The notes below the pieces were generated by a model. The model was not told where the DNA came from. It saw nothing but the letters and a program-made list of their open reading frames with translations, and did no database searches. This document shows positions 2,478-30,984 of a stretch of DNA of 30,984 bases, piece by piece; position 1 is the stretch's first letter; every line of letters begins with the position of its first letter. The position numbers were made by a program, and so were the translations under genes. Origin of the DNA: a virus; IMG/VR virus record IMGVR_UViG_3300034374_001689, positions 1 through 30,984 of that record, one strand, 5' to 3'.

Positions 2478-2576
2478 ATGCGCAAGCTGATAAACCTATG
2501 CCTTGGCTCTATAGCCGTGGCTGTTTTTACTTATGTCATGCTGTTATTCGTTGCACTAGGTTATGGCGTGCAATGA
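2478..2576 (+). CDS. Single-TM microprotein (32 aa) coupled to the recombinase
   Basis: The ATG at 2478 follows the conserved AAAAGGAA leader. The product has a basic start (MRKLIN), one hydrophobic segment (LGSIAVAVFTYVMLLFVALGY) and a short end (GVQ). Its TGA (2574-2576) overlaps the recombinase ATG at 2573 in an ATGA junction, so the recombinase is probably translated by coupling. The recombinase has no good ribosome binding site of its own, which supports this ORF being real. The function is unknown. It could be a true membrane peptide or mainly a translational leader. Confidence 0.6.
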   Translation: MRKLINLCLGSIAVAVFTYVMLLFVALGYGVQ

Positions 2577-3220
2577 CCAGAAAATACGTGCTTTACCTGC
2601 GTGTCAGTACCGCGCGTCAAGGCGGTAGCGGGCTCGGATTGGACGCGCAACGCGCCCTGGTACGGCCCTACGCTGCCGACATCATCGAAACTTACCAGGA
2701 CATCGAAAGCGGCAAGAATAGCGCCAGGCCGGGCTTAGAACGCGCCCTGGCGCATTGCAAATATGCGGGCGCGTGTTTGCTTATTGCCAAGGTGGATCGA
2801 CTATCACGCGACGTTGAGTTCCTGTTTAAAATCAGGAATAGCGGCGTCGATATCTTGGCCGCTGACGCGCCCCATATGGGCACCCTCGAATGGGGCATTC
2901 GCGCCGTATTCGCGCAACATGAACGCGAAGAAATATCACGGCGCACCAAGGCCGCGCTTGCTGCTGCCAAGGCGCGTGGGGTTAAACTTGGTTCGCCATG
3001 CCCGGAAAAGGGTGGGCGCGCGCGTGCGGATCGGGAAAGGTCACAAGTGAAGTTATGCGAACAATCCGCCTGGCCCGTGGTTCGCTCGTTACATAGTGAG
3101 GGTGCCAGTCTCAGGAAAATAGCGGATTATCTTAACGCAGATAGCATTGAGACCGTTCGCGGCGGGCAATGGCATGCTTCTAGCGTGCGGAATTTACTTA
3201 AAAAGAAAGGAGCAATTTGA
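2573..3220 (+). CDS. Small serine recombinase (215 aa)
   Basis: This is a site-specific DNA recombinase of the resolvase/invertase superfamily, which cuts DNA through a 5' phosphoserine link. The N-terminal catalytic domain shows YLRVST with Arg10 and the nucleophile Ser12, the helix GLGLDAQR, and AKVDRLSRD (Lys73, Asp75, Arg76, Arg79). The long helix HEREEISRRTKAALAAAKARGVKLG (116-140) follows. The C-terminal part (170-215: GASLRKIADYLN, then RGGQWHASSVRNLLKK) is a helix-turn-helix-like DNA-binding segment. At 215 aa it is far shorter than large serine integrases (about 450 aa or more) and lacks their zinc and coiled-coil domains. The start at 2573 overlaps the upstream stop (ATGA). A longer frame from 2408 begins inside a hairpin and is rejected. 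Integration, inversion or resolution are all possible. No att site could be identified. Confidence 0.9.
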   Translation: MTRKYVLYLRVSTARQGGSGLGLDAQRALVRPYAADIIETYQDIESGKNSARPGLERALAHCKYAGACLLIAKVDRLSRDVEFLFKIRNSGVDILAADAPHMGTLEWGIRAVFAQHEREEISRRTKAALAAAKARGVKLGSPCPEKGGRARADRERSQVKLCEQSAWPVVRSLHSEGASLRKIADYLNADSIETVRGGQWHASSVRNLLKKKGAI

Positions 3221-3221
3221 A

Positions 3222-4181
3222 ATGGTTGGAAAAGTAACACCCGATGACATGATTTCGGCGTCATTAATTCCTGTTTTGTTGGGGCAGTCGCCCTACCAGA
3301 CCCCAAACGATCTTTTGAGGACGTTTATAGATCGAGATGAAGGCGTTGAACCTGAGCCGTGGGCCGGAAATGAAGCCACGCATTGGGGCAATGTCCTTGA
3401 GCCGGTCATTTTGCAGCAAGCCGCGGAACGTTTGGACCTTTCAAACGTCTTGATTGATTATGATCGGGCCATTTTTCATCCGACAATTAATCTTGCTGCA
3501 TCGCTTGACGGCTCTGGTGAGGGCGCGGGCAAAATAAAAACGGATGTGTCGCGTGGTATCTATTGCATTGGCGCTGATGTTATCGACATAAGTGGCCCTG
3601 GCGTCCTTGAAAGCAAGGCGACTCGGGCGCGACCCGAAGACGTGCCACCGCCTCAGCGTGGCCCATTACAGTTACAGGCGCAGATGATGTGTACCGGGTG
3701 GACATGGGGATGTGTAGCAACCTTGTATCAAGGGTTGGAGTTGCGACTATTTGTCTATCAATCAGATGATATAGTTCAGCGCCGCATATCTGAGGCCATC
3801 GACGACTTTGAAATGCGCCGCAAAAACCATGATTGGTATCCGCCCCTTACAAGTGAGGACGCCAACACTGCATGGTCGCGCGCAAATGAAGACGCGCCAC
3901 CGCTCGACCTTGATGGAACGAATGTGATTGGTGCGGTCGCTGATTTAATTGCGGCGAAGTACGACCTTGCGGACGCCAAGGACCGCATTGATGACGCAGA
4001 GTTGGCTATTAAAGAGGTGATGGCTAACCATGACGTTGCGACTGCCACGATTGGCGACGTTAAATATCAAATTGGTTGGGGTATGATTAATCGGAAGGCC
4101 CAGCCCGAAAAGATTGTTCCGGCTAAGCCAGCGGAATCGGTGCGTAAAAAAACACTTAGTCTAAAGGAAATGAAAGGGTAG
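3222..4181 (+). CDS. YqaJ-type viral recombinase / 5'-3' exonuclease (319 aa)
   Basis: This is a member of the YqaJ/lambda-exonuclease nuclease family, which resects double-stranded ends for phage homologous recombination. The N-terminal ISASLIPVLLGQSPYQTPNDLL and EATHWGNVLEPVILQQAAERL (Glu60) match the start of the family. The metal-binding core is SLDGSGE (Asp96), then VLESKA (Glu130 and Lys132), followed by PLQLQAQMMCTG (Gln150 and Gln152 helix). The C-terminal 70 residues appear helical. The ATG at 3222 has AAAGGAG at 3205-3211. A longer frame from 3147 would overlap the recombinase. A partner annealing protein of the RecT or Erf type is not seen nearby. Confidence 0.88.
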   Translation: MVGKVTPDDMISASLIPVLLGQSPYQTPNDLLRTFIDRDEGVEPEPWAGNEATHWGNVLEPVILQQAAERLDLSNVLIDYDRAIFHPTINLAASLDGSGEGAGKIKTDVSRGIYCIGADVIDISGPGVLESKATRARPEDVPPPQRGPLQLQAQMMCTGWTWGCVATLYQGLELRLFVYQSDDIVQRRISEAIDDFEMRRKNHDWYPPLTSEDANTAWSRANEDAPPLDLDGTNVIGAVADLIAAKYDLADAKDRIDDAELAIKEVMANHDVATATIGDVKYQIGWGMINRKAQPEKIVPAKPAESVRKKTLSLKEMKG

Positions 4182-4320: not shown

Positions 4321-4902
4321 ATGCCTAAAAGGAGGATTAAAAAACCTGCTCGCGGCATATCGCGCACTATGCTTGCGCAATCCGACAATGATTGGCGTAG
4401 GATGGAGGCGGCAATCACTGAGTTAGACCAGGTAGTTGTTGCGGCTGAGAAGCGATGGGGCGTTGATAGATTGCCTGAGCTGGTCAGCGTTGAAACGCAA
4501 GAGCGTTTCTGGAAGCAGTTTGAGCGCCTTGATGGGGCTATCAGGAGCGACGATTGCGACGCAGTTGTGCGTGGTTCATCGGCTATGATACGTGCTTATA
4601 AGGTGCTTGAGGATGAGGCGCGTGACCGTGGCCATTGTGAGCTTGCTGGCACTTGGTATGAAGCGCCAATGGATGATGGCCGCGTGCTGATCGTTGCTGA
4701 AACAGTAGCCGACGCGCACAAGGCAAGCCGTGAAAGAGACGGCGCGCTTGTGTATTCAATGGATGAAGTTGCCAGGCTGCTCATAGCCAGTGAGGACGCC
4801 CGTAATTTCGCCAAGAAAACCAAAGAGGTTTTCCCTGGCGCTACGGTTGAAGATGTGCGTAGCACTAAGCCTGACAATATGGACGACCCTATTCCTTTTT
4901 AA
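4321..4902 (+). CDS. Unknown protein with an SSB-like DDPIPF C-terminal tail (193 aa)
   Basis: I recognise no enzyme family, but the last residues read MDDPIPF. This is nearly the DDDIPF acidic tip by which bacterial SSB recruits RecO, RecQ, PriA, exonuclease I and others. The body is largely helical (residues about 15-110: DNDWRRMEAAITELDQVVVAAEKRW, FWKQFERLDGAIRSDD, SSAMIRAYKVLEDEARDRG) with a possible beta segment (GTWYEAPMDDGRVLIVAETVADA). No OB-fold pattern is visible, so it is probably not SSB itself. It follows the YqaJ exonuclease. A role as a recombination or replication accessory that docks to SSB-binding host enzymes, or competes with SSB, is inferred. The ATG abuts the previous stop. 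Confidence 0.8.
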   Translation: MPKRRIKKPARGISRTMLAQSDNDWRRMEAAITELDQVVVAAEKRWGVDRLPELVSVETQERFWKQFERLDGAIRSDDCDAVVRGSSAMIRAYKVLEDEARDRGHCELAGTWYEAPMDDGRVLIVAETVADAHKASRERDGALVYSMDEVARLLIASEDARNFAKKTKEVFPGATVEDVRSTKPDNMDDPIPF

Positions 4903-26095: not shown

Positions 26096-26117
26096 CCCCG
26101 GCGATTAAGCGCCGGGG
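26096..26117 (-). terminator. Bidirectional-type terminator hairpin with a stop codon in its loop
   Basis: CCCCGGCG (26096-26103), loop ATTAAG, CGCCGGGG (26110-26117). The TAA stop of the primase-helicase is in the loop on the minus strand (26105-26107). On the minus strand the stem is followed by TTTAGTTT. On the plus strand it is followed by TTCTTTTTT, which is a better U-tract. It is therefore a minus-strand terminator or attenuator that could also stop any antisense rightward transcription. Confidence 0.75.
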
Positions 26118-27919
26118 TTCTTTTTTATCTCCCTGACAATGCCATTGGAAACTCCAATAATACCCATGTCTTGCAACCTCTGACGAGCGCGCATTCTCCT
26201 AGTCCCGCCAGCATCGCGGGACATTGACCGATGCTTATCAGTCCATTGCTTGTGAGAAACCTCTGAACATTCTCGATCTATGAATAATTGTCGCAACGCC
26301 TCTAGGGCGCGGTCCTCCTCAATACCCAAATTGATTTTTGAAGAAAATTCAGCATCATCCTTGCGGCTAAGAACAATGGATGAATCGCCAATCAGTGCAA
26401 TTTCTTCCATGCGGAATGTCATGTCATCACACGGCTCTGCGTCCTTTTGCTTCTCCATCTTCATGGATAATAAATTCTCAGCACGAGCAACGCGAATACT
26501 CGTATCTACTGCGCCCAACAAAGCCGTTGAACCACGCATCCCACGCGCAACATCTTTGCCGCTATGGTGAATGCCCATAAGAGCGCAGCCAACATGCTTC
26601 TTAATCGAATCACACGAATCAATAAACATACCCATGTCAGTTGCGGAGTTTTCATCGCCGCCAAGCAATGCCCTTGCAACAGTGTCAACAAAGACGGCGC
26701 TAAACTCCATACCAAAGCTGTCAATCGTTCGCATCAATTTTTCAACTTCATCCGGCTCTCGAAGGCGGACAGCCGTTGGCAAAACAAAAAATGGCGCGTC
26801 AATGCCTACTCCATGATAAGCCTGCCATGCGTGTATACGCTTTCCTAGCCCACCTACGCCCTCACCTGCGATATAAAGCACCGCCCCCTGCGCTGACGCC
26901 TTCCCTTGCCACGCCTCACCATAAGCCATACTCAAGGCCATATCTAAAGCTAGAAAGGATTTGCCAGCCCCAGGCTCACCGTACATCACGGAAAATCCAT
27001 GTTTCGTTAAAACATCCTCAATGCACCACTCAACAGGCGGCATGGAACGAAGGAAGGATAGTGAGTACGTTTGGAAAATATCGTCGCGTTGAATTTCAAC
27101 GTCATCGACTTTTGGCTTTTCAACAATTGGCTCAGCCTTTTTGGCCAAGATCGTTAAATGCTCAACTGTATTCCCAGCGTCAAGCCAATCACAAATATCA
27201 CCCTTTTCAACAACACCGGGCAATTCAACCATGCGGACAGACTTCGCAACGTTTGTTAGTTCTGAGACAACGAGATTGGCGTGCGCCATACCAGCCTGGT
27301 CATTGTCTGGGATAACAACGACGTTCTTACCCAAAAAATATTGCGCTAGTTCCGGCTTCCAGTTTTTTGCGCCGCCGTGATTTGTAGTGGCAATCTTGCC
27401 CTCCCTAACTAATCGGTCTGCGCACTTTTCACCCTCAACAATGTAAATTGCCTTCTGGCCCGCCGACATCACCGCTGGCAAATTGTACGGCAAGGGATCA
27501 ACATCACGCATGTTATTGATCCAACCGCCATTCCCATCAGGTTGCCTTTGGCGAAATGTTTTCGGCTCAAACCTCTGCACCTGATAGGATAGAACGCCAT
27601 CAGCGTTGTAATAATCGTAACACTTAGAAACAAACGAGCGAGGCATGATCGCTTCTTCTGTTTTTTTATCTATCCCAAACTTACGCTGCAATATGTCCGC
27701 AATACTAGAAAGCGAAGCACCTTCACGCGACCTAACCAAGTGCGTAACGCCGCCACCCTCTTGCTCTTCGTGGTCAAACCAAGTGCCCTTTCTCAAGTCA
27801 ACAGACTTGGACCCGTGCGTTCCCCACCGCAACTGATGTCGGCTCGATAACTTAGCATTCGGCTCCCCCCAATAGTGGCGAGCCACCTGCTCCATGTAAG
27901 ACCCAATATTAACTGCCAT
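26105..27919 (-). CDS. Primase-helicase: TOPRIM plus RepA-type AAA ATPase (604 aa)
   Basis: The N-terminal 90 residues resemble the entry domain of phage primases but contain no CHC2-type zinc cysteines. The TOPRIM domain is at about 157-215: YIVEGEKCADRL (Glu162/Glu164) and VVVIPDNDQAG (Asp205, Asp207). The RepA-like RecA-fold helicase comes next: Walker A GEPGAGKS (314-321), Walker B AVFVDT (408-413), GIHHSGKD (449-456). It primes and unwinds DNA for phage replication, partnered by a polymerase not seen in this window. A strong GGGAGG ribosome binding site precedes the ATG at 27919, and a hairpin separates it from the SSB-like gene upstream. Confidence 0.92.
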   Translation of the reverse strand: MAVNIGSYMEQVARHYWGEPNAKLSSRHQLRWGTHGSKSVDLRKGTWFDHEEQEGGGVTHLVRSREGASLSSIADILQRKFGIDKKTEEAIMPRSFVSKCYDYYNADGVLSYQVQRFEPKTFRQRQPDGNGGWINNMRDVDPLPYNLPAVMSAGQKAIYIVEGEKCADRLVREGKIATTNHGGAKNWKPELAQYFLGKNVVVIPDNDQAGMAHANLVVSELTNVAKSVRMVELPGVVEKGDICDWLDAGNTVEHLTILAKKAEPIVEKPKVDDVEIQRDDIFQTYSLSFLRSMPPVEWCIEDVLTKHGFSVMYGEPGAGKSFLALDMALSMAYGEAWQGKASAQGAVLYIAGEGVGGLGKRIHAWQAYHGVGIDAPFFVLPTAVRLREPDEVEKLMRTIDSFGMEFSAVFVDTVARALLGGDENSATDMGMFIDSCDSIKKHVGCALMGIHHSGKDVARGMRGSTALLGAVDTSIRVARAENLLSMKMEKQKDAEPCDDMTFRMEEIALIGDSSIVLSRKDDAEFSSKINLGIEEDRALEALRQLFIDRECSEVSHKQWTDKHRSMSRDAGGTRRMRARQRLQDMGIIGVSNGIVREIKKNPGA

Positions 27920-27975: not shown

Positions 27976-28578
27976 TTAGAAAAGTTCGTCGTCATCAGTC
28001 GGCGCGGGGTCCGACTGAGGCGCGGGGTCTTCAGCGGGGGAGGAATCGCCGAAAACGCCTGGGTCATCAACCCATGACACGATTTTCCAAACGGGTACCT
28101 TAAATCTCCGGTCATTATTTTTAGTTGTAATGGTTTCTAATTTAGGAACTTCAATCACCGGCAGCTTACCAGCGTTTGCTCCACGCTCTGCCTCATACTT
28201 ATTGTGAAGCGCTTCCATAGTGCGGACAACGGTTTTGGCGCTACTGGAAAAAACACGCATGCCAAGCGTTTTATTATAAAGGCGAACGCGAAAAGCCTTC
28301 TTGTGATCCTCTGTCGGCTGCGCTGGCTTCTTTTCACCAATACGCACCATGACAAAATCTGGAGCGCCAGAAGCAAAAGACAGCCAACCAACCTCAATAT
28401 TCTCAAGGTCCATGATGAACTTGAACGGAAGCTCTTGCTCAACGATATCCGATTTCCAAGTGCCATCAGCTTGCTGCTCTCGATTAACGGCCAGAAACTC
28501 ACCAGACGTCGCATTAAACTTAATGATCGGCAAAATATCTCCACCCGAAGGGGCATCAATTTCCAATCCCAATGACAT
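27976..28578 (-). CDS. Putative phage single-stranded-DNA-binding protein (200 aa)
   Basis: The body (SGGDILPIIKFNATSGEFLAVNREQQADGTWKSDIVEQELPFKFIMDLENIEVGWLSFASGAPDFVMVRIGEKKPAQPTEDHKKAFRVRLYN) is a beta-rich family I associate with replication modules of alphaproteobacterial phages. The C-terminal PAEDPAPQSDPAPTDDDELF is an acidic, disordered tail ending in Phe, as in T7 gp2.5 and bacterial SSB. It directly precedes the primase-helicase and follows a resolvase. I infer ssDNA binding. The ATG at 28578 has AAAGGA 7 bases upstream, while an ATG at 28584 is too close to it. The start overlaps the previous gene by 23 bases. Confidence 0.75.
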   Translation of the reverse strand: MSLGLEIDAPSGGDILPIIKFNATSGEFLAVNREQQADGTWKSDIVEQELPFKFIMDLENIEVGWLSFASGAPDFVMVRIGEKKPAQPTEDHKKAFRVRLYNKTLGMRVFSSSAKTVVRTMEALHNKYEAERGANAGKLPVIEVPKLETITTKNNDRRFKVPVWKIVSWVDDPGVFGDSSPAEDPAPQSDPAPTDDDELF

Positions 28579-29020
28579 TTTCATTCCTTTCTATACAAGG
28601 GTTGCCCGACGCGAGTATTTCTCGCGCAATCATGCAATACGCCTCAAACGTAACGTCCGCGTTGTATTGCCATCCATAATCATCTTTTCCACCAGACATC
28701 ACCACAAAAGCAGCAACTGGCACGCGGCAGATGATAGGCCGTCGATCAAAGCGATAAATTAAACTTGGAAGCAACCCGGCAGCACGGGCAGCAGAACACG
28801 CCTGGTCCCACCAAGAATCCTTGGCAAGATACCCATCCGCATATCGCTTGCACTCAATCGTAAATGGAAACGTACCGTCGCACGGTACGAGATCACCTAG
28901 ATCAGACTGGCGATATTGCTCAATCTCTCGCTTAAACTTAATGCCCAACTCATCAAGCAAAAGACCAGCGACTTCCCGCTCAAATGCAGCACCCTTGTGC
29001 CGCCCGCCGCCAAGTCGCAT
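28556..29020 (-). CDS. PDDEXK nuclease, Holliday-junction-resolvase-like (154 aa)
   Basis: The opening RHKGAAFEREVAGLLLDELGIKFKREIEQYRQSDLGDLVPCDGTFPFTIECKRYADGY has the PDDEXK arrangement: Glu14, Asp43, Glu56-x-Lys58. The order and spacing resemble Hjc/phage resolvases and T7 gp3-type endonucleases. It would cleave branched DNA to resolve recombination or replication intermediates before packaging. The start at ATG 29020 overlaps the TGA of the RHH gene. A GTG at 29023 is an alternative. The neighbours are SSB-like and primase-helicase. Confidence 0.85.
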   Translation of the reverse strand: MRLGGGRHKGAAFEREVAGLLLDELGIKFKREIEQYRQSDLGDLVPCDGTFPFTIECKRYADGYLAKDSWWDQACSAARAAGLLPSLIYRFDRRPIICRVPVAAFVVMSGGKDDYGWQYNADVTFEAYCMIAREILASGNPCIERNENVIGIGN

Positions 29021-29222: not shown

Positions 29223-30782
29223 CTAAGCAAAAACATCAAAATCCGCAGCCGCTGTATGCTGCTTAAACATCGGTCTGCCATTTGGGTTCCTGGTCAAAGC
29301 TCGATGCTCACCACCACCCAACATAAGATACCCATAAGCATCCCCAACGTGAGAATGCTCATTCTTATTCGGCGCGTCCCGAAATCGCTCCTGACCACCA
29401 CCCATCGCAACGCGCTTAAAATGATAGCCGCCAGCAAGCGATTTACGGACCCTATTACAATCCTGACTGATAAGCAACCCCGGTTTGCCATCAATTAAAC
29501 GGTTCATTGGCATTGCCCCAGCTTCACGACGCACTTTAAAATCATTAGTCGCGGTGGGCTGGGCGCGAAGCCCTAGAGTGCGCAAGTGGTCAAATGACGT
29601 GACTTCAAAAATTTCATCACGCTTTCCACCAGCAGGGTCGCCCCATAACATAACCTCAGATTTCGGGAACTTACTCTGAATATCCGAAATCAAATGATGA
29701 GCAAACCGCTCCAAGCCCATATCAAACGCAACCAACTCATGCAAAATATGCCAGCGCCCATTAGGCATCTTCTGTCCAAACACAGCGGCAGGCGTTAAGC
29801 CAAAGTCCAAACCAATATGCAATGGATAGCCCGGCTCATACTCAACGTCATGCGCCATCAAACTATCAACGTACTCCGGCCAAACAGGCTTGCCGTCTTG
29901 AACATAAACATACTGAGCGCCCGCATAACACTGAATCCAATCCAGTGTCTTGCCAGCCAACTGCTGCTCATAATAACCAACAGGCAAATTATTCGTATTC
30001 TCCGCAAGCGGGTTCATCACCCAATACTGACCCGCCGCAAAAATCGAATCCTCATGCTCCTTGGTCGCTTCCTTAACGCCACCAGGCTGCTTGTAAAACT
30101 TCCAAGGATAACGACCCTTAACAGGGTTCTTCTCAGCCAAATTACACCACCAATGGTCACTATCCATTGGGTTGGTACTCATCCAAACACCACGCCACGG
30201 ACAACCACCATGCTTCTTCGTTGGGTAACGGCCAACACGAGACGTCAAACCATCGACAACCGCTTTCGGCAACTCTCGCGCCTCATCAATAAACCCACCC
30301 GTCAACTCAAGCGATAGCAGCTTGCGGACATCACGCGGCTGGTCCAACGCTAAAAAAATAACCTCACAATCCAAACCCGGCGCGCCATCACGAGGAGGCA
30401 ACTTAATATGATGCGTAATAGGAGGACTCCAACGCATCTCCCCCCAAACAGACTCAGGGAATATCTCCTGCCACGTCTTGATCGTCGTCGTCCGCAATTC
30501 CGGATAACTGTTGCGGATGACTGCAAATCTGGAATACCTGATTGAGTTCTCTGGCGATGGTGGCTGCTTCACCGCCCTCAGCATAACTTCGGCCAAACTC
30601 GCATACGTCTTGCCAGAACCTACCGGCCCCATCAAACCACGCACAAATGAATCGTCGTTTAAAAACTTCCATACCGTAGGGCTTTCACTAAAATCCAAGT
30701 TTAACCCAGTTAATGCCTCAGTGTTGCCGCCACGACGACGGCGACGAGGCGAACGATCCGTCGCGCGACTACTCCTCGCCAT
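29223..30782 (-). CDS. terL: Terminase large subunit (519 aa)
   Basis: The ATPase domain has Walker A GPVGSGKT (about 52-59) and Walker B GGFIDEARE (163-170). The nuclease domain has IGLDFG (Asp326), WGDPAGG (Asp382) and HVGDAYG (Asp481), the metal-binding Asp residues of the RNase H-like fold. The motor packages DNA through the portal and makes the headful or site-specific cuts. An Arg-rich N-terminus (ATDRSPRRRRRGG) precedes the ATPase. The ATG at 30782 overlaps the TGA of the upstream gene (TGATG). It is the first complete gene of the leftward operon in the window. Confidence 0.95.
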   Translation of the reverse strand: MARSSRATDRSPRRRRRGGNTEALTGLNLDFSESPTVWKFLNDDSFVRGLMGPVGSGKTYASLAEVMLRAVKQPPSPENSIRYSRFAVIRNSYPELRTTTIKTWQEIFPESVWGEMRWSPPITHHIKLPPRDGAPGLDCEVIFLALDQPRDVRKLLSLELTGGFIDEARELPKAVVDGLTSRVGRYPTKKHGGCPWRGVWMSTNPMDSDHWWCNLAEKNPVKGRYPWKFYKQPGGVKEATKEHEDSIFAAGQYWVMNPLAENTNNLPVGYYEQQLAGKTLDWIQCYAGAQYVYVQDGKPVWPEYVDSLMAHDVEYEPGYPLHIGLDFGLTPAAVFGQKMPNGRWHILHELVAFDMGLERFAHHLISDIQSKFPKSEVMLWGDPAGGKRDEIFEVTSFDHLRTLGLRAQPTATNDFKVRREAGAMPMNRLIDGKPGLLISQDCNRVRKSLAGGYHFKRVAMGGGQERFRDAPNKNEHSHVGDAYGYLMLGGGEHRALTRNPNGRPMFKQHTAAADFDVFA

Positions 30783-30984
30783 CACTTATCCCCAAACATA
30801 GCCATCCTCAAGCGCGCGACAAAAAGAGACTGCTCCGCAGTGGGTGCGCCCGCGCTCGTGTCATTACTCAAAAGACGAGCGGCTACGGTTGCCATTCTTT
30901 CTGACTTCGAAGCGCTTCGATATGTTGTCGTATCAAGAAATTGCTCTTGCTGTTTGGTTAGGGCGAAATCAGGCGCGTATTCCT
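30782..30984 (-). CDS. 3' end of an unknown gene, possibly terminase small subunit (partial)
   Basis: An open frame enters from the right edge and ends in TGA 30782-30784, coupled to the large terminase start. The visible C-terminal part reads EYAPDFALTKQQEQFLDTTTYRSASKSERMATVAARLLSNDTSAGAPTAEQSLFVARLRMAMFGDK. It is charged and helical, with no clear motif. A small terminase subunit is inferred only from the position upstream of terL. Confidence 0.55.
   Translation of the reverse strand, partial: EYAPDFALTKQQEQFLDTTTYRSASKSERMATVAARLLSNDTSAGAPTAEQSLFVARLRMAMFGDK

Follow-up and report, generated by a model that had tools for sequence, protein, structure and literature searches.

A family of phage replication-module proteins carries an SSB-like C-terminal tip on a non-SSB body

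The C-terminal tip of SSB, which in E. coli reads ...DFDDDIPF, acts as a hub signal in the maintenance of bacterial genomes. In E. coli, this SSB-Ct is the docking site of SIPs, with arginine residues placed to contact the carboxylate of the terminal Phe and the Asp side chains (PMC10164576). Phages carry such a signal as well: in HK620, the phage SSB tip NDYPPF is needed for loading Sak4 (PMC5928155). Here we analyze a phage protein family that ends in the same signal, beginning with one IMG/VR virus record of 30,984 bases, which we refer to as the window. The open-access literature yielded no paper in which a phage protein other than an SSB bears an SSB-Ct mimic, which is weak evidence of absence; what may be new is a known signal on a new carrier, with a possible division of labor.

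The focal protein shares features with each of the closest described systems. As in bacterial SSB, its terminal motif follows a disordered, poorly conserved linker, and the host SSBs of prophage carriers end DDDIPF or DDDEIPF. Unlike bacterial SSB, it is phage-encoded, combines a helical and an alpha/beta part in a body without an OB fold, and does not match PF00436. With the SSBs of the T7 gp2.5 and Enc34 ORF6 type (phrog_112, PF10991, PF21265) it has in common a phage replication module and an acidic C-terminal tail, and the gp2.5-type SSBs of CRP and freshwater phages have a DDxIPF/W tip themselves; the focal protein, however, is the product of a separate neighboring gene present beside the SSB and has no detectable family match. 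HK620 likewise recruits a recombination protein through the SSB-like tip (NDYPPF) of one of its own proteins, although the tip sits there on a bona fide SSB and here on a non-SSB protein (PMC5928155). We propose, at a probability of roughly 0.55, that the focal protein is a replisome-associated accessory factor that displays a mimic of the host SSB-Ct in trans of the phage SSB-like protein and thereby recruits host partners.

The focal gene encodes a 193-aa protein with a tip at its extreme C-terminus. Translation of the window bears out the reading frame and the near-SSB ending reported in the preliminary description: the protein closes with ...STKPDNMDDPIPF before the stop codon, its last residues being MDDPIPF. 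The ATG start is backed by the aligned N-termini of relatives (window, MPKRRIKKPARG; L018, MAKKIKKPQRG; L154, MAKRTPKPKRG). The gene and the parts of its product are as follows.

4321..4902, + strand: focal gene, replication-module accessory protein with an SSB-Ct-like tip (193 aa, ATG start)
4321..4377, + strand, codons 1-19: basic, low-confidence N-terminal tail, MPKRRIKKPARGISRTMLA, net +7 (AlphaFold2 model)
4378..4626, + strand, codons 20-102: helical bundle with the family signature RWGVDRLPELV (AlphaFold2 model, alignment)
4654..4830, + strand, codons 112-170: small alpha/beta part (AlphaFold2 model)
4834..4881, + strand, codons 172-187: disordered linker, non-conserved except at its start (model and column entropy)
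4882..4899, + strand, codons 188-193: DDPIPF tip, mimic of the host SSB-Ct (sequence conservation; host SSB tails alike)

Structure prediction places this tip on an exposed tail. The AlphaFold2 model, built from 60 sequences (mean pLDDT 89.7), consists of a helical bundle (residues 20-46, 51-54, 57-75 and 79-102) and a small alpha/beta part (strands 112-116, 122-126 and 143-146; helices 129-138, 147-156 and 160-170). The body had been described from sequence as helical with no OB-fold pattern; the model indeed lacks an OB fold, but because the alpha/beta part comes after the bundle, "helical" applies no further than residue ~105. At the C-terminus, ~22 residues have no modeled structure (pLDDT ~65), which leaves the tip exposed, and the prediction of an exposed, disordered end removes one way in which the proposed role of the tip could have failed.

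Neither sequence nor fold ties the body to a known family. Pfam finds no bacterial-type SSB domain (PF00436) in the focal protein, in keeping with a model without an OB fold, and the phrog_112, PF10991 and PF21265 profiles match no focal family member while they do match the neighboring CRP-811 SSB. Pfam, PHROG and NCBIfam searches with the window protein and 60 relatives gave no informative family, only scattered single-member matches. The best PDB sequence match of the family profile was to a designed protein (E 0.54), and a PDB fold search with the focal model, in which residues 106-170 were not queried alone, returned none at E <= 0.001. Its matches were generic helical and three-helix bundles, such as SCIN and the DnaK lid, with Z reaching 8.5 across about 80 residues, and we do not take them as kin. 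A structural search of BFVD yielded 13 phage relatives, uncharacterised or misnamed.

The focal family is large, phage-borne and previously without annotation. Annotated phage and plasmid sequences served as seeds, namely those of Roseobacter CRP phages, an uncultured myovirus and a Caenibius plasmid-prophage, and alignments through IMG/VR and bacterial genomes widened the set to 315 distinct sequences. Homologues occur in environmental phages and prophages, with few in annotated phage and plasmid records; two scans of genome contigs gave 0 and 7 relatives. The gene is rare in bacterial genomes, at 6 of 397, 10 of 395 and 3 of 385 in three samples, two of the six matches in the first being weak and inside long ORFs. 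Ancylobacter radicis (L156) is one culturable carrier of a tip-bearing prophage.

The tip is conserved, specific and built like that of SSB. We defined a strict tip as [DNGS]-D-x-[ILVM]-P-[FW] at the extreme C-terminus. It ends 42 of 63 focal clusters (68% identity), which thereby show the features of an SSB tip: an F/W at the very end with its carboxylate free, a Pro at -2 and a preceding acidic stretch. The tip occurs in 187 of the 315 distinct proteins, whereas other ORFs on the same contigs match the strict pattern once in 12,741 and composition gives a C-terminus a chance of p ~3e-5. One scan had used a pattern overlapping the tip; leaving out its loci, the tip remains in 109/199 distinct proteins and 30/49 clusters. 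Mean column entropy is 1.17 bits for the tip (188-193), against 1.98-2.26 in the folded parts and 2.88 in the linker (177-187), so the final six positions vary less than the body and far less than the linker; the first of these comparisons is the one that the preliminary description had called for. The linker ahead of the tip, itself non-conserved, varies in length. Members only 24-30% identical to the window protein still end in a tip (SDPIPF in L016, DDDIPF in the L366 type). Identical tip residues are encoded by differing codons in 38-63% of pair comparisons, which means that the DNA diverged while the residues stayed; since these pairs were picked as tip-bearing, their codon divergence is informative and their residue identity is not. 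The tolerance of the tip (F/W, I/V/L, D/E/N) equals that in gp2.5-like phage SSB tips, and the host SSBs of four genomes carrying the focal gene end MDDDEIPF, MDDDIPF or LDDDIPF.

The focal gene belongs to a replication and recombination module. The usual order is exonuclease, SSB or SSB-like gene, RepA/AAA helicase and focal gene, and in 187 of 199 testable loci the next gene upstream, on the same strand, is the helicase. The window departs from this layout: its helicase and SSB-like gene lie at 26-28.6 kb, on the strand opposite to the focal gene. Its exonuclease stands where the preliminary description put it, two ORFs before the focal gene, the ORF in between encoding 45 aa.

3222..4181, + strand: YqaJ/RecE-like exonuclease of the focal gene cluster (PF09588, E 9e-8; phrog_434, E 9e-31)
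26105..27919, - strand: RepA/AAA_25-type helicase(-primase); in most loci a relative of it directly precedes the focal gene
27976..28584, - strand: type-B SSB-like protein of the window (beta-barrel model; disordered acidic tail DDDELF without a host-type tip), a putative SSB

Given the module context, a packaging role for the focal protein, as terminase small subunit or otherwise, with an incidental tail is very improbable. One of the BFVD relatives, A0A6J5NZ37, is named terminase small subunit and TerL lies a few kb downstream in some loci, but the gene to which the focal gene is linked is the helicase. The arrangement in which it would be the sole TerS directly before TerL was not found: in the Caenibius element another gene, between focal gene and TerL, encodes TerS (phrog_1482, E 2e-21), and the TerL of the window lies at 29223-30785 on the opposite strand. 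As to a TerS fold (HTH plus oligomerisation domain), the PDB gave generic three-helix bundles for the focal model and no significant match.

Tight linkage with exonuclease, SSB and helicase also raises the prospect that the tip binds a phage-encoded partner (the module exonuclease, helicase or a recombinase) and that its likeness to the host tip is incidental. The tail of T7 gp2.5, which binds T7 polymerase and primase-helicase, would be a precedent, and acidic-Phe tails occur on other module proteins too. The HK620 phage SSB tip, similarly, serves the phage's own Sak4 (PMC5928155). Yet the module exonuclease differs by lineage, being YqaJ-like in some and PD-(D/E)XK in others, and across these lineages the exact host consensus with its terminal P-F/W is kept; the tip is the same as those of host SSBs. 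We therefore regard a phage partner as improbable, and recruitment of host proteins as the better reading of a tip shared with the host.

Two types of protein fill the SSB slot, and profile comparison shows no relation between them. Type A is gp2.5/Enc34-like by profile matches. Type B has as its sole annotation the "nucleotidyltransferase" PHROG phrog_9528, weak for the window protein and down to E 1e-11 for others. Foldseek found no significant match for type B in the PDB; its best structural match, chain 9teh_I from the PhiC31 integrase-RDF synapse (Z 7.6 over 146 residues), does not exceed what chance arrangements give, and at Z about 3-4 its matches include OB-fold proteins (RPA, BRCA2, mtSSB). 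We therefore infer its SSB role from position, model and tail.

Tails in this module vary beyond the focal tip. All of 43 type-B SSB-like proteins keep the C-terminal Phe, preceded by acidic residues and often followed by one Gly (EDFG); this acidic-Phe tail is a second, distinct tail code. The type-A SSBs of L065, L083, L102 and L133 carry 4-5 extra residues past the tip (DDIPFDFAA, DDEIPFMMEWR), either a sequencing error or a real extension. The PD-(D/E)XK exonuclease of the type-A SSB clade (L011, L025, L054 and relatives) has an acidic-Phe tail, for example DVFDETVDF, and the L016 helicase ends ...FDDIPFD; SSB-like tails are thus found on several module proteins. The window also encodes a serine recombinase at 2573-3220 (+), alongside the type-B match to an integrase-RDF synapse, and a dual SSB/RDF-like role of the type-B protein is worth a test.

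Focal protein and phage SSB do not carry the tip together. We compared 186 distinct focal/SSB pairs. The focal protein bears the host-type tip in 109 of them and the phage SSB in 41 (39 of type A, 2 of type B), while 36 have no tip on either. No pair has it on both, where about 24 would be expected if the two were independent. The non-overlap holds at cluster level (Fisher p 0.009-0.013); parsimony on the tree gives 3 changes of SSB type and 7 of SSB tip, and so few independent switches make it suggestive rather than proof. In L152/L153 the tip is on the type-B SSB-like protein (VDDDLPF) and the focal protein has none, a second origin of an SSB-borne tip, outside the gp2.5-like lineages; L480 and L484 very probably duplicate these two records. 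Pairs with the tip on neither protein include near-tips (DDPIGF, DDEIPY, DDPIPDLG) and prophages without any tip. In Rhodospirillales-order prophages, for instance, the focal protein ends ...TPIRRRAGA and the SSB tail reads THDTEF.

The tip is thus dispensable in some phages, as clades with the tip on neither protein attest. With 36/186 such pairs, and more in Rhodospirillales-order prophages, we dropped the idea of at least one tip-bearing protein in every phage. Homologues without a D/E-x-x-PF end, named at the outset as evidence that would speak against a functional tip, do exist: some prophage clades have them, and so do a large freshwater clade and the Roseobacter CRP phages. In the freshwater and CRP groups, however, the phage gp2.5-like SSB nearly always has the tip, which fits recruiting better than a meaningless tail. 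L293 encodes a small protein (394-855, -; phrog_21613, function not known) that ends ...PADDIPF, while its focal and SSB-like proteins have no tip; this single case is a possible third tip carrier.

This distribution also bears on whether the focal protein blocks host enzymes. As a decoy it would compete with SSB-Ct for the pockets of RecO, ExoI, RecQ, RecG and PriA and keep these enzymes off phage DNA. Such an inhibitor would account for the tip data equally well, and a helical body requires no DNA role, but inhibition does not predict a tip-free focal protein in phages with the tip on their own SSB, nor a focal body that stays conserved even in tip-free clades, nor strict linkage to a helicase with none to a host-takeover region. 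We consider it unlikely, if slightly less so than a phage-encoded partner. In the phage genomes analyzed, no focal tip coincides with a tip on the phage SSB, which tilts the balance towards recruiting over blocking and suggests that these phages place the host-recruiting tip on a separate protein.

If the focal protein recruits host partners, its body, presumably with the basic N-terminal tail, would dock on the phage replication machinery, either on the neighboring RepA-type helicase or on DNA coated by the phage SSB-like protein, or both. The flexible acidic tip would then fill the SSB-Ct pocket of host SSB-interacting proteins, candidates being PriA, RecO, RecQ/RecG, exonuclease I and the Pol III chi subunit, and bring them to phage DNA. 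A phage may need this adaptor because its own SSB-like tail, DDDELF in the window, is not expected to be read well by host partners. That the body docks, that host partners bind and that the protein recruits rather than blocks we infer from the patterns above, which largely support the first interpretation of the tip. More tentatively, and with somewhat less than even odds, the SSB tip may have been split off the ssDNA-binding protein onto a dedicated adaptor beside the helicase in a widespread phage group, many of Alphaproteobacteria, with the tip moving in evolution between adaptor and phage SSB, and perhaps a third small protein as in L293, but not kept on both.

A non-SSB phage family with an SSB tip would show that this signal is separable from ssDNA binding. 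It would be a compact natural probe of the host SSB partners that a phage needs, and a role would be given to a large unannotated family of environmental phages and prophages. Natural variation, with the tip on the focal protein, the SSB or neither, makes the question directly testable.

Two further elements lie near the focal gene or elsewhere in the window. A short ORF at 5716-5991 matches the PAPS-reductase family over 90 residues (phrog_424), and a full-length relative of it adjoins the focal gene in CRP-821 and L054. A near-identical 28-nt hairpin-forming repeat (GGCAGCGGCGC..GCGCCCTGCC) occurs at 382-409 and 685-712, at the 3' ends of two small ORFs.
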